Virus record (IMG/VR): IMGVR_UViG_3300032215_000060
Location: 1 to 33,108 of that record
DNA: 33,108 nt
DNA from: a virus
Direction: 5' to 3' (one strand)
Made by a program: the position numbers and the translations under genes
The notes under the pieces: generated by a model
What the model saw: only the letters and a program-made list of their open reading frames with translations
Databases searched by the model: none
Told to the model about the DNA's origin: nothing
Shown: positions 1 through 32,334 of the stretch, piece after piece
Layout: every line of letters starts with the position of its first letter
How positions within the stretch are numbered: the first letter of the stretch is position 1

Positions 1-14
1 ATAATTTTTTTCAT
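1..14 (-). CDS. 5' end of a leftward gene cut by the window edge
   Basis: An ATG at 14-12 opens a frame reading Met-Lys-Lys-Ile before the window ends. It starts 2 bases after the stop codon of the gene at 17-649. Its leader, AAAAAATAACT directly before the ATG, matches the leader of the RNA polymerase gene at 32325. It would be the next gene of the leftward cassette. Nothing can be said about its product. Confidence 0.4.
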
Positions 15-16
15 AG

Positions 17-649
17 TTATTTTTTTAGTTTGATTTTCCAATAGGACTGAATACCGTAGGTTGCACCTCCAGTAACTTGAGTACCTATGTTTAGACCGAA
101 TATGTGGTCTTTCTTATTTTTTAGTAATAATCCCACACTAGCACCTGTTATACCAAGAGTTTGATTTCCATTTATACCACCACCTAAGTATAGTTGTGTC
201 TTAGGTTTCTCATAAATAGTATTGGTAATAGTGGTCTTTTCAGTGATTGTTGGAATCTTATAGTTATATCTATAGGATCTGTTCTTTAATTGATTTTCTT
301 TAACTGTATCTGCAATAGCAACATAGCCAAGAGTATCTAATTTTAGAGTATCTGCATATACTGTTAGAGCTAAGAACTTAGTTAATAAAGTATCATATTG
401 AACTTTAAGACCTATATAACTTGTATCAGCTATATAATGAGCTGGTATAGGAGCTGTATCATGAATAATAGTTCCTTTCATCTTTTTAACAATCAAGCTA
501 TCATGTACTTGCCAACTGGTATCATGTAAAACAACTGTGTCAGAAGTGTTATGTTTACCTGAATTAGCTCCACCACAACCACTTTGTTGTAAAAAGACAA
601 TGGCAATTAAAACCACTATAATTATACTAAGCAGGTTTTTCATCATCAT
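17..649 (-). CDS. putative lipoprotein, spanin-like, with Asp-Thr repeats
   Basis: This 210-residue protein begins with a strongly hydrophobic segment (about residues 5-20) followed by LQQSGC, a plausible but imperfect lipobox that would place the lipid on Cys25. Residues 35-115 contain eight Asp-Thr pairs plus an HDS at irregular spacing, in a region predicted by eye to be beta-rich. The C-terminal third is glycine-rich (GGGINGNQTLGITG) with alternating hydrophobic residues, which could be a beta structure at the outer membrane. The start overlaps the upstream holin-like gene by 23 bases, so the two are probably translated together. A lipoprotein beside a holin-like gene suggests a role in disrupting the host envelope, such as a spanin. 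That role is inferred from context only; a virion or surface lipoprotein is the alternative. Confidence 0.6.
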   Translation of the reverse strand: MMMKNLLSIIIVVLIAIVFLQQSGCGGANSGKHNTSDTVVLHDTSWQVHDSLIVKKMKGTIIHDTAPIPAHYIADTSYIGLKVQYDTLLTKFLALTVYADTLKLDTLGYVAIADTVKENQLKNRSYRYNYKIPTITEKTTITNTIYEKPKTQLYLGGGINGNQTLGITGASVGLLLKNKKDHIFGLNIGTQVTGGATYGIQSYWKIKLKK

Positions 650-881
650 CTTTCTTTTTAGCTGTAAATTTATCTAAACTATCAGCACCCATACCAATAG
701 CTGTAATAACCATAACGGCATTTACAAGCTCAGCAGCAGGTTTAAAATGCTCCTCAGAGAAACTGTTTGCTGTCATAGTACTACATAAGAATATAGCACC
801 TAAGAAAGCTACTACAGGCTTTATTGAGATAGAGCCACGCTCATCTTTGAATAGTTCAACTATCCACTCTTTAAACTTCAT
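627..881 (-). CDS. holin-like small membrane protein
   Basis: This 84-residue protein has two hydrophobic stretches, about residues 22-40 (PVVAFLGAIFLCSTMTA) and 49-66 (AAELVNAVMVITAIGMGA). They are joined by a short charged loop, and the C-terminus is highly charged (KKKDDDEK). Small size, two membrane spans and a charged tail are the general look of a class II-type phage holin, which makes the membrane lesions that release or activate endolysin. The amphipathic start MKFKEWIVELFKDERGS could lie along the membrane. It overlaps the lipoprotein gene downstream by 23 bases and follows another single-span protein gene upstream. Holins have little sequence conservation, so the function is an inference from topology and context. 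No endolysin is visible within the window. Confidence 0.55.
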   Translation of the reverse strand: MKFKEWIVELFKDERGSISIKPVVAFLGAIFLCSTMTANSFSEEHFKPAAELVNAVMVITAIGMGADSLDKFTAKKKDDDEKPA

Positions 882-892
882 AAATATTGATT

Positions 893-1189
893 TTAAGGTA
901 TGTAAAGAATTCTTGTTACTTTCAATCTGTCTGGAGGTAAAACAGCATAACTATTTTTTAAAGAATCTTCAGGAATTTCTTTAGTAGGTAGTTCTGCTGA
1001 GGCTGTTTTATAGACCATTCTCTCCAAGTTGTCTATACGAGTTTTGTCAATATTAGATTGAGCCATTAAGGCTTTAACATCATTTTTGATTGTACTCACA
1101 TCATTCCAGATGAGCAAACTAACTAAGGATACAAGTGTTGGAAATATCCAAACTTTAAATGTAGCTATAGAAGGATTGTCTTTAATCAT
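893..1189 (-). CDS. small membrane-anchored coiled-coil protein
   Basis: This 98-residue protein has one hydrophobic segment near the N-terminus (about residues 12-28, VWIFPTLVSLVSLLIW). A helical region likely to form a coiled coil follows (about 30-62, with the sequence STIKNDVKALMAQSNIDKTR and onward). The tail is proline-containing. An N-terminal anchor followed by a coiled coil is the layout of inner-membrane spanins (Rz type) and also of several phage membrane accessory proteins. It lies 11 bases from the holin-like gene and 10 bases from the next gene upstream, inside the same leftward cassette. I do not recognise a specific family; an i-spanin role is a guess from layout. Confidence 0.5.
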   Translation of the reverse strand: MIKDNPSIATFKVWIFPTLVSLVSLLIWNDVSTIKNDVKALMAQSNIDKTRIDNLERMVYKTASAELPTKEIPEDSLKNSYAVLPPDRLKVTRILYIP

Positions 1190-1199
1190 GGTTTAGATA

Positions 1200-1469
1200 C
1201 TATTTAGTAGGTTGAAACTCATATACTAGACCTGCTGGCTTTTCAAAGCTGGCAATCAATGAGTTAGCAATGATTTTACCAGTTTTGTCTTTACGTACAA
1301 AGTATCTCATACGATTCTCACGAATGTTCTGAGGACTTCTAATAGTGTTAGCAGCTGGAATCTCAATAGTATCGATTGGAACAGGTTGCTCAGCAGAAAT
1401 GCTTTGCATTGTACCAGGAATAGGATAACCTAAATAGTCCTTTTGGGCATAAAATTTTTTAGTAACCAT
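1200..1469 (-). CDS. conserved-looking hypothetical protein, first gene of leftward cassette
   Basis: This 89-residue soluble-looking protein starts MVTKKFYAQKDYLGYPIPGT. It has no signal peptide or membrane span. It is rich in Pro, Ile and Arg and contains a central RSPQNIRENRMRYFVRKDKTGK segment with beta-strand-like alternation. It is the promoter-proximal gene of the leftward cassette and reads away from the AT-rich divergent region. The three genes after it look membrane- or envelope-related, so it may belong to a lysis or virion-assembly module, but nothing in the sequence names a function. Confidence 0.5.
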   Translation of the reverse strand: MVTKKFYAQKDYLGYPIPGTMQSISAEQPVPIDTIEIPAANTIRSPQNIRENRMRYFVRKDKTGKIIANSLIASFEKPAGLVYEFQPTK

Positions 1470-1584
1470 GGTATTAATATTTATATATATAAACTTAGAA
1501 TATGTACAATTTGTATAATCCCTACAATATAATATACGAAATATTCAGGAAATTATCTACATTTGTGAATATAAAAATCAAATT
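1470..1584. promoter_or_regulatory. AT-rich divergent intergenic region; candidate promoter/origin-like site
   Basis: These 115 bases separate the leftward cassette from the rightward replication genes and are very AT-rich, with TATATATATA-like runs at 1482-1491. TACATTTG at 1558-1565 fits the Bacteroidota -7 form TAnnTTTG, but there is no TTTG at the expected -33 distance. TTATCTACA (1553-1561) and, on the other strand, ATATTCACA (1572-1564) each differ by one base from the DnaA-box consensus TTATNCACA; they face each other with a 2-base spacer. TATAAT occurs at 1514-1519 and 1528-1533. A regulatory role follows from the divergent layout. Origin or autoregulator function is inference. Confidence 0.5.
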
Positions 1585-2070
1585 ATGGAAATAAACGACT
1601 ACGCCTACCAATTAGAGAAAAAACTAGTGGATAAGTTTAAGCAAGACTTTTATAAAAAGTTTGATTACTACCCAGTTATCCTTACAAAATCCAATGCTTT
1701 AGTAGAAGAAAGGAGCAAATTAATGAGCTTGGAAGAGCTAAAAGAGTATTTTACCCCATTTTTACCTATAAGAAACGGTAAGACCATTCCCCTGGATAAG
1801 AAATGCAGGATCAGAGAAATCACTGAATTAAGGTCTATTTTCTGCTATATAGCTAGGACCATGAGCTATTCCCTTAAGTCAATAGGGGAGTTTTTAGCCG
1901 GAAAAGACCATACAACCGTCATTCATTCTATAAAGTGCTTTAATGACCTTAATGAGACCTCAGACGTGTTTGCAGAAAAGTACACTATGATCAAAAATTA
2001 CATAAAACAATTAAATACAAGAGAAAATGAGTCACCAGCTGTGGAGCACCTGTCTGAAGTACAGGATTAG
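1585..2070 (+). CDS. DnaA domain IV-like DNA-binding protein
   Basis: The protein has 161 residues. Residues about 75-120 resemble the C-terminal DNA-binding domain of the bacterial initiator DnaA: a helical stretch ending in SLKSIGEFLAGKDHTTVIHS, close to the DnaA signature in which DHTTV contacts the DnaA box. There is no Walker A motif, so the AAA+ ATPase domain is absent. The N-terminal 70 residues are charged and unassigned. DnaA-like stand-alone domain IV proteins are known in crAss-like phages. It is the first gene of the rightward run and reads out of the divergent region that has two near-match DnaA boxes just upstream of its ATG. It may recruit replication to a phage origin or regulate its own promoter. 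The start is the first ATG after the AT-rich region, with an A-rich leader. Confidence 0.8.
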   Translation: MEINDYAYQLEKKLVDKFKQDFYKKFDYYPVILTKSNALVEERSKLMSLEELKEYFTPFLPIRNGKTIPLDKKCRIREITELRSIFCYIARTMSYSLKSIGEFLAGKDHTTVIHSIKCFNDLNETSDVFAEKYTMIKNYIKQLNTRENESPAVEHLSEVQD

Positions 2071-2608
2071 CCCAAACCAAATTTACTACCTAGACAGTAG
2101 AAGAGATCAAATCTCTACAGGTAGTATCATAGATGCAGATATAGAACGTGCAATAGCACAGAGTAATGGTTATGTAGATTCAGATAACAATCTGACTGCC
2201 AAAGCCTTAGTAGTTTTAAACGAGTTTGAGACTTATTTAGTTAAGAGAAAGAAGAAGATCAGTAGAGAAATCTTAGGTGATGACTTTGCAGATAGAATCA
2301 AAGAGTACTTACAACTGTTTCCAGATGGTAAGTTACCTTCAGGCCAATTGGCTAAGGTTAACACTAAGACATTGACAGACAAGTTTATAAAGTTCTTTGA
2401 CATGTTCCCTGATTATAATAACTGGCCCTTAATACTAGAAGCTACAAATTATTACATATATTCTTGTAGTAAGGAGGATAATAAGTTTATGCAGACTAGT
2501 GAATATTTTATAAGTAAGCAAAACCTGCATAAGGAAATTTCCTCTAAACTAGCAGACTATTGTCAGATGATTTTAAATGACCCAGAATTAAAAAATATTC
2601 AAGATTAA
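2027..2608 (+). CDS. hypothetical protein in replication module
   Basis: This 193-residue, mostly helical, charged protein has no motif I recognise. A lysine-rich patch (LVKRKKKISRE) lies about one third in. The frame has a stop at 2012-2014, and ATG 2027 is the only Met near the N-terminus, so the gene overlaps the end of the DnaA-like gene by 44 bases in a different frame. The true first codon could be a non-ATG codon near 2070, because the first 15 residues inside the overlap look less protein-like than the rest. Its position between the initiator-like protein and the helicase suggests a replication role, such as helicase loading, but that is inference only. Confidence 0.6.
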   Translation: MSHQLWSTCLKYRISPNQIYYLDSRRDQISTGSIIDADIERAIAQSNGYVDSDNNLTAKALVVLNEFETYLVKRKKKISREILGDDFADRIKEYLQLFPDGKLPSGQLAKVNTKTLTDKFIKFFDMFPDYNNWPLILEATNYYIYSCSKEDNKFMQTSEYFISKQNLHKEISSKLADYCQMILNDPELKNIQD

Positions 2609-2609
2609 T

Positions 2610-2640
2610 TTTGTTATTAAAAAGATATTTATTAACTTTA
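2610..2640 (+). promoter_or_regulatory. Bacteroidota-type promoter-like site upstream of 2663
   Basis: TTTG at 2610-2613 is followed after 19 bases by TAACTTTA at 2633-2640. This matches the Bacteroidota primary-sigma form TTTG-N19-21-TAnnTTTG at all but the last base. It lies in a 54-base gap and ends 22 bases before the ATG at 2663. It could be a chance match in AT-rich DNA. Confidence 0.45.
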
Positions 2641-2662
2641 CAACCCTACAAAATTTCAGTGT

Positions 2663-2863
2663 ATGAACAGTTACGACCAAGAGATTGAAAAGCTATTCGA
2701 TCAAATCACAGTTAGAATCAGTGATAGAGAAATATTTGCTATAACCCTAGAAGGATTTAAGTTAGCTATGGAAAAGATGGCTATTATAGCAAATGCTGAC
2801 GGCAAGTTAGAAGTGTTAAAAGATTTAAAACAAGATTTTAAGGAAATTTTAACTAATGCCTAA
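2663..2863 (+). CDS. small acidic hypothetical protein before the helicase
   Basis: This 66-residue, helix-rich protein begins MNSYDQEIEKLFDQITVR and carries many Glu, Asp and Lys residues. It has no Cys and no membrane span. Its stop overlaps the helicase start by one base (TAATG at 2861-2865), so translation is probably coupled. It follows a promoter-like site. Small helical proteins directly before helicases can be loaders or inhibitors, but no motif supports that here. Confidence 0.55.
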   Translation: MNSYDQEIEKLFDQITVRISDREIFAITLEGFKLAMEKMAIIANADGKLEVLKDLKQDFKEILTNA

Positions 2864-3918
2864 TGCATAATGAAATTATAGAAAGACCTTATGGAGCACT
2901 TTTATATTCAGAATCACTCACTGAAAGTGCAAGCTATGTTAACGATAGAAGACATGGTAGAATTAAATCATTCAGAACACCATGGTCTGGTTTTAATAGA
3001 GCCGGTATTAATGGATTAGAATGGGGATCAATATTAACTATAGGAGCTAGACCTGGTTCAGGTAAGACACTTATAGCTAGTCAAATATTAAGAGAGTCCC
3101 GCAGACTAAATCCTGATCAAGATTTTAATATACTAGAATTTCAATTTGAGATGGGTCCTAAACAATCTGGTTCTAGAGCTTTTGCTGCAGAGCTAGCTTT
3201 AGATTATAACCAAGTGTTAAGCACTGATAAATCTCTTGATGATTTTACTTTTGATAGAATTCAAAGATTAATAAGAGAAACAAAAGATCTTGAGAGTAAA
3301 GGCGTTTGGAGATTACAAATTAATAAACCTATCAATCATAAAGAGATGCTAGATGCTATACGTAAGTACTATGTAGCACTTGGTAGCAAACCACTTCTTA
3401 TAACTATTGATCATAGTTGGTTAATTAAGAAAGCTCCAGATGAGAAAGAGAAGTTTTCAACTCTTTATAACACTGTAGAAGCATTAATGGAACTCAAGAA
3501 TGAACTACCTATTATTATCATCATGCTCACTCAGCTTAATAGAACTATAGATGAAGCTAGTAGAAAGACACCGGGTAACATAGGAAACTATCCAGTATCT
3601 GCAGATGTATTTGGTGGTGATGCTCTTATGCAAGGATCAGATATGTTAATAGCATTAAATAGACCATATAAATCTAATATATTTAGTTACGGACCAAGGA
3701 AGTATGAAGTAAAAGATGACTACATCTTTATGCACTTACTTAAGATTAGAAACGGTTCTGACAAAAATGATATTCTATTTATGCAAGCAGATTTTAGAAG
3801 ACAGCAGTTGTTAGAAGTACCTGAGTTTCATTCAACTGGCGGTAATAATAATGCAGCTAATGGTAACGGTTATACACCGTATAATTCAACAGTTGGACAA
3901 AACACTTTTACAACATAA
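2863..3918 (+). CDS. DnaB-like replicative DNA helicase (RecA-fold core)
   Basis: This 351-residue P-loop ATPase would unwind the phage replication fork. Walker A is GARPGSGKT (residues 61-69). The following strand, LEFQFEMG, places Glu97 like the catalytic glutamate of DnaB (FSLEM). Walker B is LITIDHSWL (Asp183). TQLNR at 223-227 matches the SQLSR sensor. DALMQGSDMLIALNRP and the late LLKIRNGSDKNDILFMQADF resemble the last DnaB motifs, in which the RNG/HRNG segment forms the arginine-finger loop. The usual N-terminal helical domain of DnaB is missing, as in several phage SF4 helicases. The last 30 residues are Asn/Gly-rich and likely disordered. It belongs to the replication operon with SSB-like and primase genes. 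Confidence 0.9.
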   Translation: MHNEIIERPYGALLYSESLTESASYVNDRRHGRIKSFRTPWSGFNRAGINGLEWGSILTIGARPGSGKTLIASQILRESRRLNPDQDFNILEFQFEMGPKQSGSRAFAAELALDYNQVLSTDKSLDDFTFDRIQRLIRETKDLESKGVWRLQINKPINHKEMLDAIRKYYVALGSKPLLITIDHSWLIKKAPDEKEKFSTLYNTVEALMELKNELPIIIIMLTQLNRTIDEASRKTPGNIGNYPVSADVFGGDALMQGSDMLIALNRPYKSNIFSYGPRKYEVKDDYIFMHLLKIRNGSDKNDILFMQADFRRQQLLEVPEFHSTGGNNNAANGNGYTPYNSTVGQNTFTT

Positions 3919-3938
3919 AATAACAAAATACAAATATC

Positions 3939-4532
3939 ATGGCAGACTTTACTGTGCAAACTGCAGAAGAGCAGAAGAAGGAGTGGAAACGTAATAAGCT
4001 AGATGCTATACGTGATTACCACAAAGATTTAATTAGTGACCTTGGCATTAGTATCACTGATTTTAATATGAAAATGCCGTTCCATGACAAACATGGAAAG
4101 TTAGTAGTAGGTATCTTTTCATCAGAGTTTAGAAAAGAAAAAGGTTTCTTCTTTGAATTAGTTACTAGAGATCTAGTACCGGCAGATGAGAAGCGTACTG
4201 TTTATAGAATTCCATTTAACATAGCTTTTGAAGAAGAGTATGAGTTAAATGAGAAAGGATCTTATTTAGTTCCTATAGAAGAACTAAGATCTGTAAATGT
4301 TCCTTCAGTGGCTATTAGTAAATATTCAGCAATAGAGACAGAAGACAAAGTTTTTACTACAAGTACAACAGCACCTGATATAAACAAGATGCCTATGTAT
4401 AAAGCACCAGCTCCAATGGATGATTCTGATGCTCCTTATAGTCAAATGACTATTAGGGATTATTATGCTATTCATACAGGAAAGCCTGTAAGTGGTAAGA
4501 CTTGGTTAAATGATCTTATTAAACAAAAATAA
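3939..4532 (+). CDS. hypothetical protein between helicase and Sak4-like ATPase
   Basis: This 197-residue protein has a charged N-terminal helix (residues 8-35) and a beta-rich middle (LVVGIFSSEFRKEKGFFFEL onward to about 130). A Thr/Ser/Pro-rich linker (about 130-165) leads to a compact C-terminal segment, YSQMTIRDYYAIHTGKPVSG, near residues 166-185. The linker-plus-tail layout suggests a tail peptide that docks a partner. It is not a P-loop, although SGKT occurs near the C-terminus without the rest of a Walker motif. It sits 20 bases after the helicase and 11 bases before the ATPase, so a replication or recombination accessory role is likely. No family is recognised. Confidence 0.65.
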   Translation: MADFTVQTAEEQKKEWKRNKLDAIRDYHKDLISDLGISITDFNMKMPFHDKHGKLVVGIFSSEFRKEKGFFFELVTRDLVPADEKRTVYRIPFNIAFEEEYELNEKGSYLVPIEELRSVNVPSVAISKYSAIETEDKVFTTSTTAPDINKMPMYKAPAPMDDSDAPYSQMTIRDYYAIHTGKPVSGKTWLNDLIKQK

Positions 4533-4543
4533 AACAACCCCAC

Positions 4544-5227
4544 ATGGCACAAGGTGTATTAATCATCGCAGAAAGTGGTGCAGGTAAGTCTACAGCAATT
4601 GAGACTCTGGACCCATTAGAGACATTTATTATAAATGTAGCTAATAAACCCCTTCCTTTTAAAGGATGGAAAAAGAAGTATACTATTTGGAGTAAGGACA
4701 ATCCAACTGGTAACATGTATGATAAGTCTGGTACAGCACACATAGCTGCAGCATTGCAATATGTGAGTGACAAAAGACCTGAGATTAAAACCATAGTGGT
4801 AGATGATTTCCAATATATGAGCTCATTTGAGTTCTTTGAAAGAGTAGACGAGAAAGGTTATGAGAAGTTCACTCAGATCGGTGCAGGTTTAGCTCGTATA
4901 GCTAGAATGCCTAAAGACTTGAGAGAAGACTTAACTGTATTCTTCTTAACTCATGCAGAAGAGTCAACTGACATGGATGGTAAACGTAAGTTAAAAGCAA
5001 AGACTATTGGTAAAATGGTTGATGAGAAACTTACATTAGAGGGATTATTCTCTATAGTTCTTTACGGTAAAGTAAAGAAAGGAAAAGATGATGTAATTAG
5101 ATATGTTTTTGAGACACAGACTACAGGTGATAACACATGTAAGTCACCTAAAGGAATGTTTGGTACCTTTGAAATACCAAATGACTTAGGCCTTGTTAAA
5201 AAATCTATTATAGATTACGAGAATTAG
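4544..5227 (+). CDS. Sak4-like/phage AAA nucleotide-binding protein
   Basis: This 227-residue RecA-fold P-loop protein starts almost directly with its Walker A, AESGAGKST (residues 10-18). Walker B is IKTIVVDDFQYM with Asp86/Asp87. A later strand, DLTVFFLTHAEES, has the sensor-like polar residue after a hydrophobic strand. This short single-domain layout is that of the phage AAA-domain family often called Sak4 or nucleotide-binding protein. Sak4 proteins have single-strand annealing or recombinase activity aided by an SSB, and such a gene often sits next to an SSB gene. The next gene (5267) is SSB-like, which supports the call. The ATP-binding assignment is strong; the recombination role comes from the family and context. 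Confidence 0.8.
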   Translation: MAQGVLIIAESGAGKSTAIETLDPLETFIINVANKPLPFKGWKKKYTIWSKDNPTGNMYDKSGTAHIAAALQYVSDKRPEIKTIVVDDFQYMSSFEFFERVDEKGYEKFTQIGAGLARIARMPKDLREDLTVFFLTHAEESTDMDGKRKLKAKTIGKMVDEKLTLEGLFSIVLYGKVKKGKDDVIRYVFETQTTGDNTCKSPKGMFGTFEIPNDLGLVKKSIIDYEN

Positions 5228-5266
5228 TATATTTCAAACGTTTAAATATTTAAAAACAACACGGTT

Positions 5267-5878
5267 ATGTTTAGTACAAAAGGACAAGAAGTAAAACAAG
5301 GTGGTGGAGTACAGAAGTCTCTACAACCAGGAGTAGTTTATGCACACATTTTTAGTGCATCAGTAAAAGAGTCAAAAAATACAGGAAAAAAGTCTTTAGA
5401 GTTTATCTTAGAAGGACCTGCATTGGAAAACTTTGAAGGATGGAGTATAGAAAAAGGTAATGACGCTGGACCTAAATTTAAAGGTCAGTCAGCAAGAGTA
5501 TCTGCAAGTATGTGGATTGACAGTTCTGGTGAGACTAGCCCATCTAAAAATGAGATTATGAATAAACTTAGCATTATTGCAGTTGAGTTAGGTCTTAAAG
5601 ATGAGTTAGATCAAATCAATGCATCTAGTATTGAAGACTGGGTTGCTCAAGTAGCTAAGTTAGTAGCAGGTAAGAATTTATATTTCTTTCTAAAGGGTCA
5701 AGAAGAAGAGTACAATGGTAAAACTATTGTAAAGTTATCTTTACCTAAGTTTAAGTATGCTTCTGCTTATGAAGATAAGTTAGATGTATATGATAGAAAT
5801 AACCAATATCATTTTAAGGCATTACAAAATAAGCCAGTAACTGGTTTTGAGCCTGTTAATGATGATTTCAATATGTAA
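5267..5878 (+). CDS. putative single-stranded DNA-binding protein
   Basis: The protein has 203 residues. The N-terminal half alternates beta-strand-like segments with glycine and aromatic residues (FSTKGQEVKQGGGVQKSL, then SLEFILEG and FEGWSIEKG), as expected of an OB-type fold. A helical insert covers about residues 90-125. The end of the protein is acidic with a terminal aromatic (PVNDDFNM), reminiscent of the protein-docking tail of SSBs. It follows the Sak4-like ATPase by 39 bases and is followed by a strong intrinsic terminator, so it closes a transcription unit. SSB would coat single-stranded DNA at the fork and assist annealing. The fold is judged by eye, so the call is moderate. Confidence 0.6.
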   Translation: MFSTKGQEVKQGGGVQKSLQPGVVYAHIFSASVKESKNTGKKSLEFILEGPALENFEGWSIEKGNDAGPKFKGQSARVSASMWIDSSGETSPSKNEIMNKLSIIAVELGLKDELDQINASSIEDWVAQVAKLVAGKNLYFFLKGQEEEYNGKTIVKLSLPKFKYASAYEDKLDVYDRNNQYHFKALQNKPVTGFEPVNDDFNM

Positions 5879-5907
5879 TATCGGGACTTTCATACATACA
5901 ATTAAGA

Positions 5908-5939
5908 GGGGAGGGTTTCTACTCTCCCCAATTTTTTTT
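5908..5939 (+). terminator. intrinsic terminator after SSB-like gene
   Basis: GGGGAGGG (5908-5915) pairs with CTCTCCCC (5922-5929), giving eight pairs with one G-T. The loop is TTTCTA, and AA plus eight T (5932-5939) follow. It lies 29 bases after the SSB-like stop and 11 bases before the primase ATG. The core GGGGAG/CTCCCC stem recurs at 10415. Confidence 0.88.
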
Positions 5940-5950
5940 AAATTTACGTT

Positions 5951-6919
5951 ATGTTTAAAACAAAAGATTTAGTACATGATATAAAAGGTGTGCCTATAAA
6001 CTGGATCTTTGAATACTTCGGTAAGTTAAAAGAAAAGTTAACCGGTCAAGATGTAAAGATTAAAAGCTTATTCAATAGTAAAGAACGTACACCTAGTATG
6101 TGTATCTATTACAATGCAGAAGCTAAAGTTTATAAGTATAAAGATTTCTCTACAGGTAAGGGGGGCTCAGCTATAGATCTTGTAAAAGATATCTATGACT
6201 TACCATATCATAAGGCTTGCAATTTAATTGTAGAGCAATATAATGATTATGTTCTCCATAATAATGGAGGATACGACGTAAAGGAATTTAAAGAGCAGTC
6301 TAAATATAAAGTGAAGAGCTATATATTTAGACCATGGACTACACAAGATCAGTATTTCTGGACCCAGTTTAATATTGGATCTAAAATATTAGATGAATAC
6401 TGTGTTAAGCCAATTGCTTATTATACTATGGTAAAAGACGATAAAGAACTAGTTATCAGAGGTAACTATATCTATGGGTATTTTACAAAAGGCGGTGAGC
6501 TGTATAAGATTTACCAACCAAAGACTTTTGACAAGAAGTTCCTAAAGATCAAAGACTATTTACAGGGAGAACAGCATCTAGAGCAGAATGATTATCTAAT
6601 TATTCTGTCCAGTCTTAAAGACATGATGGCTCTGAAGTCCCTTAAGCTTTCTAATATCAATGTAGTTGCACCAGATAGTGAGAATTCTATGATTAAAAAA
6701 GACACTATGGAGCAGTTTATAAAAGATTATAAGAAGGTTATAGTAATGTTAGATAATGATGAAGCAGGTATTAAAGCTATGGAGAAGTATAAAATTACTT
6801 ACCCTGCAGTGGAGATTCTTCTTCTTCCTATGAGTAAAGACCTATCCGACTCAATAAAAGACAATGGAGCTAAAGCTGTTAGAGACAGATTGGTTCCATT
6901 AATAAATAAAAAATTATAA
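5951..6919 (+). CDS. DNA primase, DnaG-type with Toprim domain and degenerate zinc region
   Basis: This 322-residue protein is predicted to lay down RNA primers. Residues 36-80 follow the outline of the DnaG zinc-binding domain (SLFNSKERTPSM, then YKDFSTGKGGSAIDLV), but the metal-binding cysteines and histidine are not present. Residues 215-300 form a Toprim domain: LIILSSLKDMMALKSL, VIVMLDNDEAGIKAM with Asp268 and Asp270, and a final LPMSKDLSD. The usual Toprim glutamate position is occupied by Ser (SSLKD), a variant I associate with phage primases of this type. It lies just after a strong terminator, so expression must come from readthrough or its own promoter. Its stop overlaps the HNH gene start (TAATG). 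Helicase and SSB genes nearby fit replisome function. Confidence 0.82.
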   Translation: MFKTKDLVHDIKGVPINWIFEYFGKLKEKLTGQDVKIKSLFNSKERTPSMCIYYNAEAKVYKYKDFSTGKGGSAIDLVKDIYDLPYHKACNLIVEQYNDYVLHNNGGYDVKEFKEQSKYKVKSYIFRPWTTQDQYFWTQFNIGSKILDEYCVKPIAYYTMVKDDKELVIRGNYIYGYFTKGGELYKIYQPKTFDKKFLKIKDYLQGEQHLEQNDYLIILSSLKDMMALKSLKLSNINVVAPDSENSMIKKDTMEQFIKDYKKVIVMLDNDEAGIKAMEKYKITYPAVEILLLPMSKDLSDSIKDNGAKAVRDRLVPLINKKL

Positions 6920-7311
6920 TGGCAACTAGAAAGAAACCAGTTAAGAAGACAAGTAGAGTTCCTAAAACTAGAAATGCGGGAACTATGACAGAATCAGCTT
7001 TTTGGTCATTCATACGTAGTGCCCTTAGACAGAAGTCTAGGTGGTGGAAACCTATTACAGAATGTAAGATGAAAGCTCGTAGGCCCTATAAAGGACCTAA
7101 TAAGAGACAGAAGTTTGAATACTTATGTAATAGTTGTAAGACATGGTTTCCTGATAAACAAATTAACGTGGACCATATTGTAGGAGCAGGTAGTTTAAAC
7201 TGTGGGCAGGACCTTCCCGGATTTGTGGACAGGCTCTTCTGTGAACAGGATAATCTACAAGTGTTATGTACAACATGTCACGATCATAAAACAAAATTAG
7301 AAAAGAAATAA
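6919..7311 (+). CDS. HNH endonuclease-like protein
   Basis: This 130-residue protein has a very basic N-terminus (RKKPVKKTSRVPKTR), then a helical, Trp- and Arg-rich stretch, then an HNH/zinc module: CNSC (Cys70/Cys73), VDHIVGAG (Asp85-His86), NLQVLC (Asn112), CTTCHDHK (Cys117, Cys120, His121, His123). The Cys pairs would hold zinc and His86/Asn112/His121 or His123 would form the nuclease site. Being within the replication operon and overlapping the primase stop by one base, it may act as a replication or recombination nuclease rather than a homing enzyme. There is no intron or interrupted gene next to it. Confidence 0.8.
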   Translation: MATRKKPVKKTSRVPKTRNAGTMTESAFWSFIRSALRQKSRWWKPITECKMKARRPYKGPNKRQKFEYLCNSCKTWFPDKQINVDHIVGAGSLNCGQDLPGFVDRLFCEQDNLQVLCTTCHDHKTKLEKK

Positions 7312-7312
7312 T

Positions 7313-7549
7313 ATGGCAATTTATAACAATGACACAGATCCAAACGTTAATGATTGGGATAGGTCAGAAGAAGCACAGATTTCTAAGCAGGAGCTATTAA
7401 ATAAAGTTGCTGAACTTGAAAACTGTAATGATTTAATTAAAGAGTTAGTAGCTCTCCTTGAATATGAAGAAGCTTTAACTGTAGATCCAAGATCCCAACA
7501 AAGGATGAGTGCTAAACTAATAGAACTAGGATTATGGCCATCAAGATAA
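7313..7549 (+). CDS. small acidic hypothetical protein
   Basis: This 78-residue helical protein (MAIYNNDTDPNVNDWDRSEE) is acidic, with leucine-rich heptad-like spacing in the middle (QELLNKVAELENCNDLIKEL), which may form a short coiled coil. It starts one base after the HNH stop and its end overlaps the next gene by 16 bases, so it is tightly embedded in the operon. No family is recognised. Confidence 0.5.
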   Translation: MAIYNNDTDPNVNDWDRSEEAQISKQELLNKVAELENCNDLIKELVALLEYEEALTVDPRSQQRMSAKLIELGLWPSR

Positions 7550-8034
7550 CTACAGAAGATATAATAGCTAAATATCCAAAGATATTTGAAGACTATCCTG
7601 GTAATCCAGGAAGATGTAATTGGCATGGTGTACCGACAGGTTGGTTACCAATTATAGATGACTTGTGTGGTTCTATACAAGAATACATAGATCATCATAG
7701 ACACTCTATAGATAATCCTGATTATATAGAAGGATCTACATGGAACTATGATGATATAACTACGCATAAATCTATAATGGTATCTCATAATCAAGTTACC
7801 TGCACACAGATGAAAGAAAAGTTTGGTGGACTCAGGTTCTATGAAAATGGTGCAGATAAAACAGTAGATGGTATGATACACTATGCAGAATACTTAGCTG
7901 ATAACACATGCCAAGATTGCGGTTCTAGAGAAGACCTAGGCATAACCTCAGGTTGGATAACTGTACTTTGTAGAACCTGTGTAATAGCTCATGGTGATAG
8001 AGCCATGAGAGTTTGGAAACCTAAAAATTTATAG
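7534..8034 (+). CDS. conserved phage hypothetical with zinc-knuckle
   Basis: This 166-residue protein contains the phrase MKEKFGGLRFYENGA, then CQDCGSREDLGITSGWITVL, then CRTC. The Cys pairs CQDC and CRTC are likely to bind one zinc. The order GW(L)PIIDDLC, KEKFGGLRFY, CxxCG, GW..(T/V)LC recalls a widespread family of unnamed phage proteins that I recognise by pattern but not by function. ATG 7534 overlaps the preceding gene by 16 bases; no later start keeps the first conserved segment. The gene after it begins one base downstream of its stop. Confidence 0.65.
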   Translation: MAIKITTEDIIAKYPKIFEDYPGNPGRCNWHGVPTGWLPIIDDLCGSIQEYIDHHRHSIDNPDYIEGSTWNYDDITTHKSIMVSHNQVTCTQMKEKFGGLRFYENGADKTVDGMIHYAEYLADNTCQDCGSREDLGITSGWITVLCRTCVIAHGDRAMRVWKPKNL

Positions 8035-8035
8035 T

Positions 8036-8374
8036 ATGGCAGATATAGATCAAGAAATAGATCATAACTCAGCATTTAGAAAATGGATGAATGATCCAGA
8101 AACTCAAAGAATGCAGGAGGAAGCTCAAAAGCAGTGGGAAGAAGAGAAACAAAAATTAAAAGATGATCTTACACCAGAAATGGTTAATGACATTAGAGAA
8201 TGGCGTTGTATAGAAGATTATACATGGAGAGCCATAGCTACAGCTTTTTACGAGAAGTATAAAGACTTTAGTTATTCCCATAGTATTATGCCAAGTAATC
8301 AAATTAATGGTATGATGATTTGCGGTGTTGCACAAGATTTATTAAAACAAGAAAACTCAGAAGGATGGAATTAG
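8036..8374 (+). CDS. hypothetical protein with conserved WRAIA...NQINGM segment
   Basis: This 112-residue protein has a highly charged helical N-terminal half (Gln/Glu/Lys-rich, about residues 10-50). A compact C-terminal part reads REWRCIEDYTWRAIATAF, then SNQINGMMICGVAQDLL. The second half is like a family of small phage proteins in which a Trp-Arg-x-Ile-Ala helix precedes an NQ-x-x-G helix, possibly a small helical DNA-binding fold. That is my pattern impression, not a proven family. Its last 10 bases overlap the likely start of the nuclease gene. Confidence 0.55.
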   Translation: MADIDQEIDHNSAFRKWMNDPETQRMQEEAQKQWEEEKQKLKDDLTPEMVNDIREWRCIEDYTWRAIATAFYEKYKDFSYSHSIMPSNQINGMMICGVAQDLLKQENSEGWN

Positions 8375-9393
8375 AATCATTAATGGAAGAAACAGTTGTC
8401 AAATTACAAGATGACTTTTATAGTAAGAAGTTTTACTTCTCTTATAGTAGCTTAAACAAGCTTATGTGGAACCCTGCAGTATTTTATCAGATGTATGTTC
8501 TAGGTAATAAAGAAGAACGTACAGATGCTCACTTAATACAAGGTAAGATTATTCACGCTCTTCTCTTAGAAGAAGAAAAGTTTAATGAACAGTTTGTTAT
8601 TAGCCCCGGCAAACTTCCAGGTGATAATATCAAGATAATAGTTGACAGAGTGTACAGTCATCATGTGCAAATAGCTAAAGATGGTGACACTCGTACTAAC
8701 TTAGAAGAGTTTGACGGTGCAATACTAGATGTAATGAAAGATATAAACTACTTTCAGAACCTGAAGACCGATCAACAGCGTGTAGAAAAGGTAATTACAC
8801 TAGAAGCTACTAACTACTGGGCATTTCTTAAGATTAAAGGAGATAAAACTCTAATTGATCAAGAGACATATGACTATTGTAAGAGTGCAGTGGAACTAAT
8901 CAAGACTAATAAGTCTATTTGTGAACTAATTGGCTGTAATTTAAATGACTTTAGTAACGTTGAAGTTACTAACGAGCTCCCGCTACAGGTTGACCTAGTA
9001 AATAAAAATTTTGGTGTTAAAGGAATTATCGATAACTTAGTATTAGACCATGATAAGAAGATTATCTTTGTAAATGATATCAAAACTACTAGCAAAGACT
9101 TAAAAGACTTCCCTGAAACTATTGAATTCTATTCCTATTGGATGCAAGCTGCAGTATATATTACTATGGCTGTTTCTGTATATAAAGAACTGATAGACAA
9201 AGGATATACTATTAAGTTTCACTTTGTAGTTATAGATAAAGCATTTCAAACATATGCCTTCCCGGTATCTAATACAACAATAAACAAATGGGGTAATAGA
9301 TTTTTAGAAGTGATGGATAAAGCCAGTTGGCATTACGATAATAAAAGTTATGAACTACCTTATGATTTTGCTACAGGGAACGTAACTTTATAA
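8365..9393 (+). CDS. PD-(D/E)XK nuclease (RecB/RecE/Cas4-like exonuclease)
   Basis: From ATG 8365 the protein has 342 residues. An upstream ATG at 8320 is possible, but it adds a Cys/Arg-rich 15-residue stretch lying wholly inside the previous gene, so I prefer 8365. Motifs run FSYSSLNKLMWNPAVFY (start of the RecB-like fold), LIQGKIIHALLLEEE with His64, GIIDNLVLD with Asp223, NDIKTT with Asp238 and Lys240 (D-x-K standing in for E-x-K), and WMQAAVY with Gln261. This order H, D, (D/E)xK, QxxxY is that of Cas4/RecB-type nucleases, which chew DNA ends to make single strands. Together with Sak4-like and SSB-like genes it could form a phage recombination system. Confidence 0.82.
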   Translation: MELESLMEETVVKLQDDFYSKKFYFSYSSLNKLMWNPAVFYQMYVLGNKEERTDAHLIQGKIIHALLLEEEKFNEQFVISPGKLPGDNIKIIVDRVYSHHVQIAKDGDTRTNLEEFDGAILDVMKDINYFQNLKTDQQRVEKVITLEATNYWAFLKIKGDKTLIDQETYDYCKSAVELIKTNKSICELIGCNLNDFSNVEVTNELPLQVDLVNKNFGVKGIIDNLVLDHDKKIIFVNDIKTTSKDLKDFPETIEFYSYWMQAAVYITMAVSVYKELIDKGYTIKFHFVVIDKAFQTYAFPVSNTTINKWGNRFLEVMDKASWHYDNKSYELPYDFATGNVTL

Positions 9394-9404
9394 AAAGACA
9401 TAGT

Positions 9405-9965
9405 ATGATAGAAACCCTTTATGGAAAGTATTTTCAGAAATCAAGATCGTTTCTATATCCAGCTCTTGGAATCAAACGTAATAGCAATATTACTCCTACA
9501 GGTACCTATCTTTCTCTTGAGGGGAAGATAGGCCCTGAGGATATGAAACTAATAGTAGCTTTTAAACACGATGATAGTGAAGGGTATAAAACTTTTGAAG
9601 ATAAAATGTTGTTAACCAATCCTTTATATGAAGATAAGATAAGTGTTAAAGAATATAACCTTTACATATTTAACTTTGAAATGTATAAAGATGACTGGTT
9701 TAACTTTTTATTAGGTAAGTACTCAAAACTATCTAACGTTTTAAAGAGAGCCATAAAATCATATTATGGGGAATCATCGTCTGAATTTAAGTATATGGAG
9801 ACTTATATATACCCTGAAAAGTTTATAGGAGTGTATTCCAAAATGCTTAATGTAGATATAGCTACTCTTAAAGAAGTGGGTGAGCTGTGTGATCCGTGTG
9901 ATCTAAAAAAAGAAATATTAAAGATTTCTGTAAAAGATTTTGAATTATTAGAAAAGAGTAACTAA
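9405..9965 (+). CDS. hypothetical protein
   Basis: This 186-residue protein is rich in Lys, Tyr, Phe and Leu, with a beta-rich first half (TGTYLSLEGKIGPEDMKLIV) and a helical second half. It has one pair of close cysteines (ELCDPCDLKK) near residues 163-166. There are no membrane spans and no nucleotide-binding motif. It lies 11 bases after the nuclease gene. The promoter-like site at 9939-9970 overlaps its 3' end. I do not recognise the family. Confidence 0.6.
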   Translation: MIETLYGKYFQKSRSFLYPALGIKRNSNITPTGTYLSLEGKIGPEDMKLIVAFKHDDSEGYKTFEDKMLLTNPLYEDKISVKEYNLYIFNFEMYKDDWFNFLLGKYSKLSNVLKRAIKSYYGESSSEFKYMETYIYPEKFIGVYSKMLNVDIATLKEVGELCDPCDLKKEILKISVKDFELLEKSN

Positions 9966-9970
9966 ATTTG
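9939..9970 (+). promoter_or_regulatory. Bacteroidota-type promoter-like site upstream of 9987
   Basis: TTTG at 9939-9942, a 20-base spacer, and TAAATTTG at 9963-9970 match the full Bacteroidota TTTG / TAnnTTTG form. The site spans the end of the 9405 gene, and its -7 box ends 16 bases before the ATG at 9987. This is the best promoter match I found in the window. It would drive the single gene 9987-10388, which ends at the terminator at 10415. Confidence 0.55.
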
Positions 9971-9986
9971 TAAAAAACCAAGAATT

Positions 9987-10388
9987 ATGAATAAATCAAT
10001 GATGTTAATTACATCTGCGTGGGGAGCTAAAAAGACATTTAAATTAATACCTATCACTCCAGATTGTCCTTATAACGAGGCTATCTTTGACTTTGATAAT
10101 AAAGTGTTGGCAGTAGTATCTAGAGAGAAAAAAGACTCTTTACATATGTTAGCTAAGCTTAATGAATTTGGTGATCCTCAGACAATGAAGATTGGCAAGA
10201 GATCAAATGGTAAAGATTATGCTGAAGAGCGTAAGACATTAGAAACATATTATGAATACTATGTAGAAAAAGCAGATGAAGTAGAAAACTTAATCAACAT
10301 GTTTGCAATTAATGCAGACAGCTTTGACTACAAGCAGTACTTCGTAGAAGAAAAACCTACTTTACCAAGTAGTATAGTGACCGTATAG
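9987..10388 (+). CDS. hypothetical protein forming a possible single-gene transcription unit
   Basis: The protein has 133 residues. The N-terminal half is beta-strand-like (NKSMMLITSAWGAKKTFKLI, then AIFDFDNKVLAVVSREKKD), followed by a long charged helix (about residues 75-105) and a short Pro/Ser-ended tail. It has no cysteines, membrane span or known motif. A promoter-like site lies just before it and an intrinsic terminator just after it, so it may be expressed at a level of its own. That pattern suits a protein needed in quantity, such as a structural or nucleic-acid-coating protein, but this is only inference. Confidence 0.65.
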   Translation: MNKSMMLITSAWGAKKTFKLIPITPDCPYNEAIFDFDNKVLAVVSREKKDSLHMLAKLNEFGDPQTMKIGKRSNGKDYAEERKTLETYYEYYVEKADEVENLINMFAINADSFDYKQYFVEEKPTLPSSIVTV

Positions 10389-10414
10389 ACTAACCCAAAA
10401 CAAAGACTGGAATA

Positions 10415-10438
10415 GGGGAGAGAAATCTCCCCTTTTTT
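10415..10438 (+). terminator. intrinsic terminator before DNA polymerase gene
   Basis: GGGGAGA (10415-10421) pairs with TCTCCCC (10426-10432) around a GAAA (GNRA-type) tetraloop, followed by TTTTTT (10433-10438). It lies 26 bases after the 9987 gene stop. The core stem is the same GGGGAG/CTCCCC as at 5908. The 45 bases between it and the polymerase ATG show no TTTG/TAnnTTTG promoter. Confidence 0.9.
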
Positions 10439-10483
10439 CAGCTTTACTCGTAAGGGGGAACAGCTTAACTGAACCATTGTATT

Positions 10484-12427
10484 ATGAAAAAAGAAGATAT
10501 TCCTACCCATTGGGTAATGGATTATGAAACATTGTGTAATTGTTTCATAGCCGTATTTGAACACTATAAAGATGATACTATCAGTGAGATATTCATCATC
10601 AATGAAGACCAAAATGATTTTGTTAAGTTTATTAATTTCTTACAGAAGTGTATAAATACTAATCAATGGCACATCTCTTTTAATGGTCTAGCATTTGATG
10701 CTCAGATCTCTCAGCACTTACTTAAGAACAGATCTAAACTTGCTAATCTTAGTGGATTAGAACTAGCTACGTATATACATAAGCTAGCTCAGACTATTAT
10801 TGATAAGTCTAACAGAGGTGAATTCCAAGAGTTTGCTCCAAGACAGATTAAGATTAGACAGATTGATTTATTTAAGATGAATCACTGGGATAATAAAGCT
10901 AAGATGAGCAGTCTTAAATGGATACAGTATAGTATGGATTGGGGTAATGTAGAAGAAATGCCTCATCATCATAGTAAACCTGTTGAAAATAGTCAACAGC
11001 TGCAGGATATAATAACCTATTGTATTAATGATGTCAAGTCTACTAAGAAGATACTAGAACATTCTAAAGAACAAATAGATTTAAGAAAGACTCTAACTAA
11101 TGAGTATGGTATAGATCTGTATTCTGCTTCAGAGCCTAGGATTTCTAAAGAGATATTCTTGTATTTCCTAGAACAAAAGCTTGGATGGCAGAAGAGTGAG
11201 ATAAAAACATTAAGGACACCTAGAAGTAGGATTAACCTTGGTGACTGTATCTTACCCTATGTTAAGTTCCAGACTCCAGAGTTCCAGAGGATCTATGAAT
11301 TCTTTGAGACAAAGGTAGTTAAATCTACTAAGGATGGATTCAAATTTACACTAGACTATAAAGGCGTAAAGACTGATTATGGATTAGGCGGTATACACGG
11401 TGCAGCCCCTGCAGGTGTATATGAAGCTAAGCCGGGATGGACAATAGTAACTTCAGATGTTACTAGTTACTATCCTAATCTAGCTATTAAGAATAAGTTT
11501 CATCCAGAGCATCTCCCGCAGAAAGAGTTTGGAGACTTGTACGAATGGTTCTTTGAAGAGAGAAAGAAGATACCTAAGACAGATCCAAAGAACTATGTAT
11601 ATAAATTGATCTTAAATAGTACATACGGTCTTACAGGTGATGAAAATTCTTTCCTGTATGATCCTAGGATGACTATGCAGATTACTATCAATGGTCAACT
11701 GTTATTATCTATGCTCTATGAGCAACTCAGTTTAGCTATACCTGAAGCTATTCCGCTTATGCAGAATACAGATGGTCTTGAGATGATGATTCCTACTAGT
11801 GAATACAGTAAGTATATGGATGTCTGTGCACAGTGGGAAGTAATGACTCAACTTAATCTAGAACATGATGAGTATTCTAAGATGGTTATTGCAGATGTCA
11901 ATAACTATATAGCTGTACACAAAAATGGAAAGGTTAAGTCTAAAGGTAAGTTTGAATGGGAAGACCTAGAGAAAAAGAAGGTGGGAATATTTCATAAAAA
12001 TAAATCCTTCCTGATTATTCCTAAAGCTATCTATGCATTCTTTGTAAATGGTATAGCCCCTAAGGATTTCCTTGCACAGAACAGATCAATCTATGATTAC
12101 TGTGGAGGTGTAAAAGCTAAAGGTGGATGGTACTATGAACATAGAAGTGTTGAACATGGTGATGTACTTACTAAAAAGCTACAGAAGATTGTTAGATACT
12201 ATGTAACTAAATCTGGTACCAAGATAGTAAAGTGTCACCCAGACGGTAGAGAGATGCAGGTAGAAGCAGGTCAGTGGATGCAGAAGGTAGTCAATAAGAT
12301 AGACCCTAGTATTCCCTACGATCATTACAATATAGATACGGATTATTATTTAGAGAACATAGAAAAGCAAATAGAGCAAATTAACAAGTTTAAGGTTAGC
12401 TCTTCAACACAATTAACATTATTTTAA
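10484..12427 (+). CDS. DNA polymerase family B with 3'-5' exonuclease
   Basis: This 647-residue replicative polymerase is compact for the family. The proofreading exonuclease has all three motifs: DYE (Asp13/Glu15), NGLAFD (Asn67-Asp72) and YCIND (Tyr179-Asp183). A YGLGGIHGA segment (299-307) resembles the YxGG motif between the exonuclease and polymerase domains. Polymerase motif A is SDVTSYYPN with Asp325. Motif B is KLILNSTYG with Lys374 and Tyr381. Motif C is QNTDGLEM, where the usual DTD is NTD, keeping Asp430 but not the first Asp. The most C-terminal 150 residues are Lys/Tyr-rich and probably form the thumb. It follows a strong terminator and is 10 bases before the DUF932 gene. I see no sign of a linked terminal-protein gene. 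Confidence 0.92.
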   Translation: MKKEDIPTHWVMDYETLCNCFIAVFEHYKDDTISEIFIINEDQNDFVKFINFLQKCINTNQWHISFNGLAFDAQISQHLLKNRSKLANLSGLELATYIHKLAQTIIDKSNRGEFQEFAPRQIKIRQIDLFKMNHWDNKAKMSSLKWIQYSMDWGNVEEMPHHHSKPVENSQQLQDIITYCINDVKSTKKILEHSKEQIDLRKTLTNEYGIDLYSASEPRISKEIFLYFLEQKLGWQKSEIKTLRTPRSRINLGDCILPYVKFQTPEFQRIYEFFETKVVKSTKDGFKFTLDYKGVKTDYGLGGIHGAAPAGVYEAKPGWTIVTSDVTSYYPNLAIKNKFHPEHLPQKEFGDLYEWFFEERKKIPKTDPKNYVYKLILNSTYGLTGDENSFLYDPRMTMQITINGQLLLSMLYEQLSLAIPEAIPLMQNTDGLEMMIPTSEYSKYMDVCAQWEVMTQLNLEHDEYSKMVIADVNNYIAVHKNGKVKSKGKFEWEDLEKKKVGIFHKNKSFLIIPKAIYAFFVNGIAPKDFLAQNRSIYDYCGGVKAKGGWYYEHRSVEHGDVLTKKLQKIVRYYVTKSGTKIVKCHPDGREMQVEAGQWMQKVVNKIDPSIPYDHYNIDTDYYLENIEKQIEQINKFKVSSSTQLTLF

Positions 12428-12437
12428 AATTACAATT

Positions 12438-13241
12438 ATGCCAGCAAAAACAGAATTTACTAGTGAGCAGCGTATCAGAGCAGCTGTACTTCCTACTCAT
12501 GGTAAAACTTACGCAGTGATCCCTCATGGATCTCTTATAGATGAAACAAGAAAAGAACTTCAGGCAGCAGGCTTTGAAGTTACTAAAGAATTATATAAAA
12601 CTAACTTAGATAGCCAAATAGCACAAGGTATCTATCATTTGAATTATGGTAACGATCCAGACATGGGTCTAATGTTTGCATGGTCAAACAGCTATAACAA
12701 AATGATGAAGTTTAAGTGTGCTGTAGGAGCTCAAGTATTTATATGTATGAACGGAATGGTATCAGGTAATCTATCTAACTACTCTAGAATACATACAGGA
12801 AATGCTTTACAGGAAGCCATAGATACTATTAAGATACAAATATCTAATGCTAGAAAGTTCTATGATCAGTTAGTAAAAGATAAAGAGATGTTAAAAAGTA
12901 TCACACTGACTAGAGGTGAGCAAGCAGCTATAGTAGGTCAGCTATTAATTGAACAAGATGTATTGACTCTTAGCCAAGTTGGTATTGTTCAGCGTGAAAT
13001 AGATGAACCTAGTCATACTTATAATGCTCCTGTAGATTCAGCATGGACTCTATATAATCATGTAACACTAGCTCTAAAAGATTCTCATCCTTTAACGTAT
13101 ATAGCAGATCATGAGAAGCTACATAACTTCTTTATAGATCAATATGGTCTTATTAAAAAGTATGTACAACCAGAATTAACTTTTGTAGAAGAAGTTAAGA
13201 AAGAAGAAATAGAAATTGATAATGGAGTTATATTTTTATAG
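12438..13241 (+). CDS. DUF932-like phage/plasmid protein
   Basis: This 267-residue protein has a central segment, GLMFAWSNSYNKMMKFKCAV followed by GAQVFICMNGMVSGNLSNYS (residues about 77-116). It matches the DUF932 outline in which a 'SxSYD..R.L.v..GA.VFVC.N....G' block is conserved. DUF932 genes occur on phages and plasmids; their function is unknown, though a DNA-related role is often supposed. The first 75 residues are beta/alpha-mixed and the last 70 end in an acidic helix. It follows the polymerase gene by 10 bases and is likely co-transcribed with it. Confidence 0.72.
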   Translation: MPAKTEFTSEQRIRAAVLPTHGKTYAVIPHGSLIDETRKELQAAGFEVTKELYKTNLDSQIAQGIYHLNYGNDPDMGLMFAWSNSYNKMMKFKCAVGAQVFICMNGMVSGNLSNYSRIHTGNALQEAIDTIKIQISNARKFYDQLVKDKEMLKSITLTRGEQAAIVGQLLIEQDVLTLSQVGIVQREIDEPSHTYNAPVDSAWTLYNHVTLALKDSHPLTYIADHEKLHNFFIDQYGLIKKYVQPELTFVEEVKKEEIEIDNGVIFL

Positions 13242-13247
13242 AAAAGT

Positions 13248-13604
13248 ATGGCAAGAGAGAAATGTAAAGTGACTGGCAAGTCTAGGTTTCCAACACCTGG
13301 AGAAGCTAAGGAAGCTATGAATAGTCTCAGGTCAACAAAAAGATATTATGATACAACAGGTAAAAGAATAAATAGAGGAGCAGGTAAAGTAAAACAGTGT
13401 AGATTTTACTACTGTTGCCACTGTAACGGTTATCATATGACTAGTCATAGTGCACCTTTAAATCAGAAAAAAAGAGAAAGGATGCATAAAGATAGAGTAG
13501 AGTCTACTAAGACTTTGGTAAAAGATAAAGATGAGGCAGCAGAGTGGATGAAAGACTCTCTGCCATTTCCTGAAACTAAAACTAATAACAATGAAATGGT
13601 ATAG
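13248..13604 (+). CDS. small basic zinc-finger-like hypothetical protein
   Basis: This 118-residue basic protein has a central cluster, CRFYYCCHCNGYHMTSH (residues about 51-67), in which CxxxxCxxC and following His residues could bind zinc. An upstream KCKVTGKSRF contributes another Cys. The C-terminal third is a charged helix. A small protein with a '(Y/C)xxCxxCxGYHxTS' block is common in tailed phages and has no assigned function. It overlaps the next gene by 14 bases. Confidence 0.62.
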   Translation: MAREKCKVTGKSRFPTPGEAKEAMNSLRSTKRYYDTTGKRINRGAGKVKQCRFYYCCHCNGYHMTSHSAPLNQKKRERMHKDRVESTKTLVKDKDEAAEWMKDSLPFPETKTNNNEMV

Positions 13605-13911
13605 GTTAAATGAAGATCACAGTGTAGAACTATTCCCAGAAGGTGAGTATCCTTTAAATGGTGATTTACGTAGTGCTATTAAGCACATAGGAGATGATGT
13701 AGTAAATGATCAAAGAATATCTACAGTGTTTTTACATTTAGATCATAACTGGAACCCAGATGGTGAACCAGTATTATTTGAAACCATGATCTTTGGTGGA
13801 GAATATGATGAAGAAATGTGGAGATACTATACATGGGATGAAGCCAAAGCTGGACATGATAGAATTGTAAATTGCCTTAAAGAAGGCGTAACACCAATAG
13901 AAAATATATGA
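13591..13911 (+). CDS. conserved phage hypothetical protein
   Basis: This 106-residue protein contains ISTVFLHLDHNWNPDGEPVL, FETMIFGGEYDEEMWRYYTW and DEAKAGHDRIV. That run of phrases (STVFLxLDH, LFETMxFGG, YxTWxEAxxGH) recurs in unnamed small proteins of many phages. I recognise the pattern but know of no function. The protein is acidic and soluble-looking, probably a compact alpha/beta fold. It overlaps its neighbours on both sides (14 bases before; an ATGA stop/start overlap with the kinase gene after), so translation is coupled. Confidence 0.65.
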   Translation: MKWYRLNEDHSVELFPEGEYPLNGDLRSAIKHIGDDVVNDQRISTVFLHLDHNWNPDGEPVLFETMIFGGEYDEEMWRYYTWDEAKAGHDRIVNCLKEGVTPIENI

Positions 13912-14594: not shown

Positions 14595-14950
14595 TGTGTA
14601 AACACTGTTTAAACTATGGAGAGGGTGATGATGATGTATATGAAGTTACTCAAGAAGATATTAATCTTTGGAAAGATAACGGTAAATACTTTGGTTATCC
14701 TAAATGTTGTATAGAAGAATTCTGTAACAGAGAGACTATTGACATTACACCAGAGCAGGAGCAAGTTATTGATAATCATGGGTTTATCCCATGTCAGAAA
14801 CATGCTATCATGATTTTGGAAAATAAGACCACTTTAAAAGACCTTATTATTAATAGAGAGTGTCAATACGATTATCCTATGGATGATGAAGATGCTGAAC
14901 TAATGAAATTTTTAATAGATAATGACCCAGAATTCCAAATTAACGACTGA
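14594..14950 (+). CDS. cysteine-rich hypothetical protein
   Basis: This 118-residue acidic protein has a CKHC pair at residues 2-5 and the block YFGYPKCCIEEFCNR at about residues 32-46, with a further Cys (PCQKH) around residue 67 and one near the end. The 'GYPxCCxxxFC' block is one I have seen in small phage and archaeal unnamed proteins, possibly a metal site. The N-terminal Met-Cys makes Cys2 available for binding. It overlaps the kinase stop by one base, and a 48-codon overlapping frame begins within its 3' end. Confidence 0.58.
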   Translation: MCKHCLNYGEGDDDVYEVTQEDINLWKDNGKYFGYPKCCIEEFCNRETIDITPEQEQVIDNHGFIPCQKHAIMILENKTTLKDLIINRECQYDYPMDDEDAELMKFLIDNDPEFQIND

Positions 14951-15738: not shown

Positions 15739-15741
15739 CAT

Positions 15742-22905: not shown

Positions 22906-22908
22906 ATT

Positions 22909-32325: not shown

Positions 32326-32334
32326 AGTTATTTT

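Follow-up and report, generated by a model that had tools for sequence, protein, structure and literature searches.

The 115-bp intergenic gap at positions 1470 to 1584, which separates the replication genes of an uncultured phage from a divergent gene block, probably consists of two overlapping promoters that face in opposite directions. What was observed directly is how the elements described below are conserved, where and on which strand they lie, and how they are spaced; that they act as promoters, where transcription starts, that the two exclude each other, and which polymerase reads which of them are inferred. The window, that is, the whole stretch of DNA analyzed (33,108 nucleotides), is a 33-kb virus record (IMGVR_UViG_3300032215_000060), probably a fragment of a larger genome. 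Its rightward gene run (1585 to 17287) begins with a DnaA-like gene and also encodes a 193-aa protein, a DnaB-like helicase, a Sak4-like protein, a primase, and a DNA polymerase (PolB). Leftward genes flank this run, at 17 to 1469 on the left and at 17464 to 33075 on the far side, and the latter block includes a 3138-aa giant ORF with DFDID (22909 to 32325). The first-pass annotation had read the gap as a possible phage origin or autoregulatory operator centered on a facing pair of near-match DnaA boxes. What stood of that reading was the DnaA domain IV-like gene, the overlapping promoter box, and a regulatory strand switch (the gap is indeed AT rich, with 18.3% GC, and the genes diverge there), while the DnaA boxes and the origin did not hold.

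The gene directly to the right of the gap (1585 to 2070, + strand) encodes a DnaA domain IV protein without the ATPase. As had been proposed from the letters, it carries the DnaA DNA-binding domain: the 161-aa product matched Pfam Bac_DnaA_C (4e-13) and, both by sequence and by fold, PDB entry 1j1v (DnaA domain IV on DNA), which was the best fold match of a model with a mean pLDDT of 83. The protein comprises domain IV plus a mostly helical N-terminal part, in which, as in the rest of the protein, a Pfam search returned no match to the AAA+ domain. In the family alignment, R75, R83, D108, and H109 were invariant and aligned with Escherichia coli R399, R407, D433, and H434, residues with DNA-contact roles. 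Thus, the phage protein shares the fold and the contact residues of DnaA domain IV; unlike in the DnaA system, it has no AAA+ domain and the sites upstream of its gene are not conserved as boxes. The second gene of the replication operon (2027 to 2608, + strand), which is kept beside the DnaA-like gene, encodes a 193-aa protein with a family-wide mean column identity of 66% and a model pLDDT of 87. It had neither a sequence match nor a fold relative in the PDB, and a role as helicase loader was dropped on those grounds. The DnaB-like helicase lies at 2863 to 3918 (+ strand; Pfam DnaB_C, 1.2e-18; PHROG 19). On the other side of the gap, the divergent leftward block opens with an 89-aa ORF (1200 to 1469, − strand) that has homologues in the window clade and gave no family match in Pfam or PHROG searches.

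The two supposed DnaA boxes, box 1 (TTATCTACA, 1553 to 1561, + strand) and box 2 (ATATTCACA, 1572 to 1564, − strand), each have one mismatch to TTATNCACA, and their letters, coordinates, 2-base spacing, and distance to the ATG at 1585 were all correct on re-reading. By itself, however, the pair is not compelling. The window contains 48 one-mismatch matches to TTATNCACA, against 50.4 ± 6.8 expected from shuffles, so that near-matches are equally frequent in shuffled sequence, and shuffling of the whole window produced a facing pair in 4.5% of cases for a gap of ≤3 and in 13.5% for a gap of ≤10. Inside the 115-bp gap alone, the probability of such a pair is low (P of ca. 0.003), yet it had been chosen from the whole window. 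Given that chance statistics did not make the pair compelling, conservation had to decide.

Relatives were fetched by their helicase, independently of the gap sequence, which gave 48 records; 40 of these had a match to DnaA domain IV, located near the helicase wherever the sequence spanned both. Further loci were added by a pattern scan, for a total of 53 distinct loci, some of them truncated. Twenty-five sequences from the window and sister clades were aligned, those of the same clade not being independent. Box 1 departed from TTATNCACA by at most one base in 8 of them, all belonging to the window clade, and box 2 did so in 5. The pair is therefore lost in relatives that keep the DnaA-like gene. 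Beyond the window clade, near-matches to DnaA boxes showed no clear excess over shuffles (0.17 versus 0.25, 0.21 versus 0.18, and, in a group of six, 0.67 versus 0.29). We dropped the DnaA boxes on this conservation and on the chance counts. On the other hand, four close relatives were identical across the 60 aligned columns that hold the pair, with variable flanks. Judging from this alignment, the block around the pair is a real constrained element, but its conserved letters differ from those of a DnaA box. An inverted repeat, ATATTCA...TGAATAT (1541 to 1547 and 1566 to 1572), was also considered as an operator and set aside, one arm being already broken in close relatives (TGAACAT). An exact DnaA box, TTATCCACA, was found 108 to 113 nt before the ATG of the DnaA-like gene only in the L037/L041 clade (also at G029 90966 and G035 15242).

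The promoter-like box that had been noted as overlapping both members of the pair, TACATTTG (1558 to 1565, + strand), was placed correctly and is kept in relatives. It lies 27 nt before the start codon of the DnaA-like gene and fits TAnnTTTG, the published −7 consensus of Bacteroidota (PMC9723704, PMC7366714). An exact TAnnTTTG was present in 24 of the 25 aligned sequences; the sole exception, L162, has TATATTTG, displaced by an insertion. The two most variable letters of the block are precisely the free positions of this consensus. Across the family, 41 of 46 regions carried TAnnTTTG on the sense strand, compared with 3 of 46 on the antisense strand, and five regions lacked it. It occupied two main positions according to clade, −26 to −31 or −64 to −66. 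As read from these sequences, the element moves yet stays kept, near −64 in the more distant clade versus −27. There is no rightward −33 TTTG in the window sequence from 1530 to 1540, a difference from the Bacteroidota primary sigma promoters; a −33 element is likewise not identifiable in Flavobacterium johnsoniae (PMC7366714). Some distant relatives have TTTG-N20-TAAGTTTG at their own site. We predict that TACATTTG is a Bacteroidota-type promoter box for the replication operon, its activity being deduced from the motif and a Bacteroidota host being assumed from the kinship with crAss-like phages.

The sole sequence common to the whole family was ACAATATAATATAC at 1524 to 1537, which reads leftward as GTATATTATATTGT (1537 to 1524, − strand) and is found upstream of the DnaA-like gene family-wide. 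In the helicase-selected relatives with readable upstream DNA, this core was exact apart from one change in the L019/L020 type and one inserted base in L050/L051, and it was kept across relatives with DnaA-like proteins as low as 34% identical. Another 18 copies (≤1 mismatch), located away from dnaA in seven longer records, lead into co-directional genes, although this count overstates the independent events, several copies being orthologous between records. In five of the seven records, every one of these copies was on the late strand or at its head and none was in the dnaA run, while G052 and G059 have single copies on the opposite (−) strand ahead of genes also on that strand. Two copies were less clean: downstream of G049 16744, a 44-aa ORF is called in the opposite direction, and L321 3001 falls within a called ORF of 50 aa. 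Because the other copies lead into co-directional genes, GTATATTATATTGT looks like the core of a phage promoter for leftward genes, with a predicted start at ca. 1524 in the window. Most copies away from dnaA carry TTTG 18 to 19 nt upstream (TTTG-N18/19-GTATATTATATTRT). At the DnaA-like gene, 35 of 45 relatives have a TAG at a fixed distance of 22 nt before the core; in the window, this TAG (1559 to 1557, − strand) falls within box 1, the reverse complement of which holds it at a −33-like position for the leftward core.

A pattern scan located the 17-mer YACAATATAATATACRA in 118 stretches, where the leftward core is present by selection and was excluded from the conservation count; 56 of the 118 placed it just upstream of a DnaA-like ORF. 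The remaining 62 (loci L088 to L202), without a DnaA-like gene within the stretch, could represent further copies of the promoter or AT-rich matches arising by chance. Another stretch, ATAAACTTNNAATATGTAGA (1490 to 1510), is conserved in the window and sister clades and lies within the predicted leftward leader. In the window, folding of this leader as RNA was no better than that of shuffles (z of +1.3).

Taken together in one arrangement, TACATTTG would start the replication operon (the DnaA-like protein, the 193-aa protein, the helicase, and on to PolB) near 1570, within the region spanned by box 2, and the TAG followed by GTATATTATATTGT would start the divergent block. Elsewhere in the genomes, the leftward core, mostly as TTTG-N18/19-GTATATTATATTRT, would drive co-directional, largely late-direction genes. 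The starts were placed by the rule from Flavobacterium psychrophilum, in which TAnnTTTG maps at −12 to −5 (PMC9723704), applied also to the leftward core. With this placement, the rightward −33 zone (ca. 1534 to 1537) would fall in the leftward core, and the rightward −7 box would contain the leftward −33 zone (ca. 1557 to 1560). Since each −33 zone would be within the −7 zone of the other promoter, one polymerase should exclude the other, and the gap could switch between the two gene blocks. In the crAss-like phage phi14:2, a virion polymerase transcribes the early genes (reviewed in PMC10136315), so that the host sigma factor may not be the one that reads the TAnnTTTG box.

The proposal that the gap is a phage origin, in which the box pair would recruit the DnaA-like protein or host DnaA, is in agreement with its AT richness, its position next to the replication genes, the block conserved around the pair in close relatives, and a local turn of the GC skew. 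Nevertheless, skew follows gene direction, and the change of gene direction explains its turn at the switch. The cumulative (detrended) skew of five long relatives reached its deepest minimum away from the switch; these records were read as consecutive tiles (G010 minus its last 841 bases), and minima at record ends are approximate. Moreover, the pair is lost where the DnaA-like gene is kept, box counts are at the level of chance, and the protein lacks the AAA+ domain with which DNA would be opened. Neither could the family-wide motif GTATATTATATTGT be retained as an origin signal, since it recurs ahead of late-direction genes. With conservation, counts, and skew all against it, we dropped the origin at the gap as very improbable.

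The region could instead be an autoregulatory operator, where the DnaA-like protein binds boxes of the TGTAGA/TCTACA type (a variant of the DnaA-box half TCCACA), box 1 among them, and controls both promoters. TGTAGA occurs in 2 to 4 copies in most sister-clade regions, against ca. 0.1 expected, and in 2 copies in most window-clade regions; the gap copy in G051 is the densest TGTAGA cluster of that record. The residues aligned with the DNA contacts of DnaA are retained, and such an operator is compatible with the two promoters. But in the remaining clades with the protein, most regions contain one TGTAGA at most, the window has only one, and the promoter element accounts for some copies, as TTGTAGA following the leftward core. 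We consider this explanation unlikely, although the DnaA-like protein may regulate its own gene through a different sequence. We also regard as doubtful that the protein competes with host DnaA at the host oriC and blocks host initiation, its own upstream region having no special role. A protein with only domain IV and its contact residues would suit a competitor for host boxes, and the phage genomes have no cluster of exact DnaA boxes; however, family-wide the gene comes first in the replication operon, beside the helicase, which fits a role in the phage at least as well. We give little credence to a more elaborate version, an early/late transcription switch in which this ATPase-free DNA-binding domain would occupy degenerate TGTAGA boxes between the two mutually exclusive promoters, shutting off the replication operon and turning on the divergent block.

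Returning to the two opposed promoters, both were compared with those read by the primary sigma factors of Bacteroidota (sigma-ABfr in Bacteroides and sigma-A in Flavobacterium; −7 TAnnTTTG and −33 TTTG). The rightward box matches the −7 consensus, and the TTTG upstream of the late copies of the leftward core resembles the −33 element. In contrast, GTATATTATATTGT stands in place of TAnnTTTG, suggesting that the leftward element is not an ordinary host promoter. The end of the core, TATATTGT, resembles TAnnTTGY, the alternative-sigma motif SM5 of F. psychrophilum (PMC9723704). We found no report of a promoter consensus for crAss-like phages, including late promoters, in the openly licensed literature. 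The origin claim is thus replaced by a testable promoter map for an uncultured phage group, in which TTTG-N18/19-GTATATTATATTRT (predicted, late direction) and TAnnTTTG (replication operon) are offered as concrete candidates for promoters read by host or virion polymerases in crAss-like phages.

With regard to taxonomy, the first-pass label of Crassvirales is plausible. As in the crAss-like phages phi14:2 and crAss001, there are opposed gene blocks, a giant protein with DFDID, and a DnaB-like helicase (ca. 29% identical), although late-gene profiles returned no recognized crAss hallmark. A DNA search of GenBank phages with window positions 1 to 4000 gave no match. Unlike the named crAss-like phages, in which none was found, the window carries a DnaA domain IV gene; searches of named phages with the DnaA-like protein gave weak domain IV matches only, and no report of such a gene in crAss-like phages was found in the openly licensed literature. 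Here, it heads the replication operon across a whole environmental lineage. When bacterial genomes were scanned with the DnaA-like alignment, 520 stretches encoding relatives of the domain were detected, with a best identity of 47% among the 80 retained, and no hint of the host emerged. No Rfam family was found in the window. Two GC-rich inverted repeats followed by T-runs, at 5879 to 5950 and 10389 to 10483, lie between replication genes and resemble intrinsic terminators.
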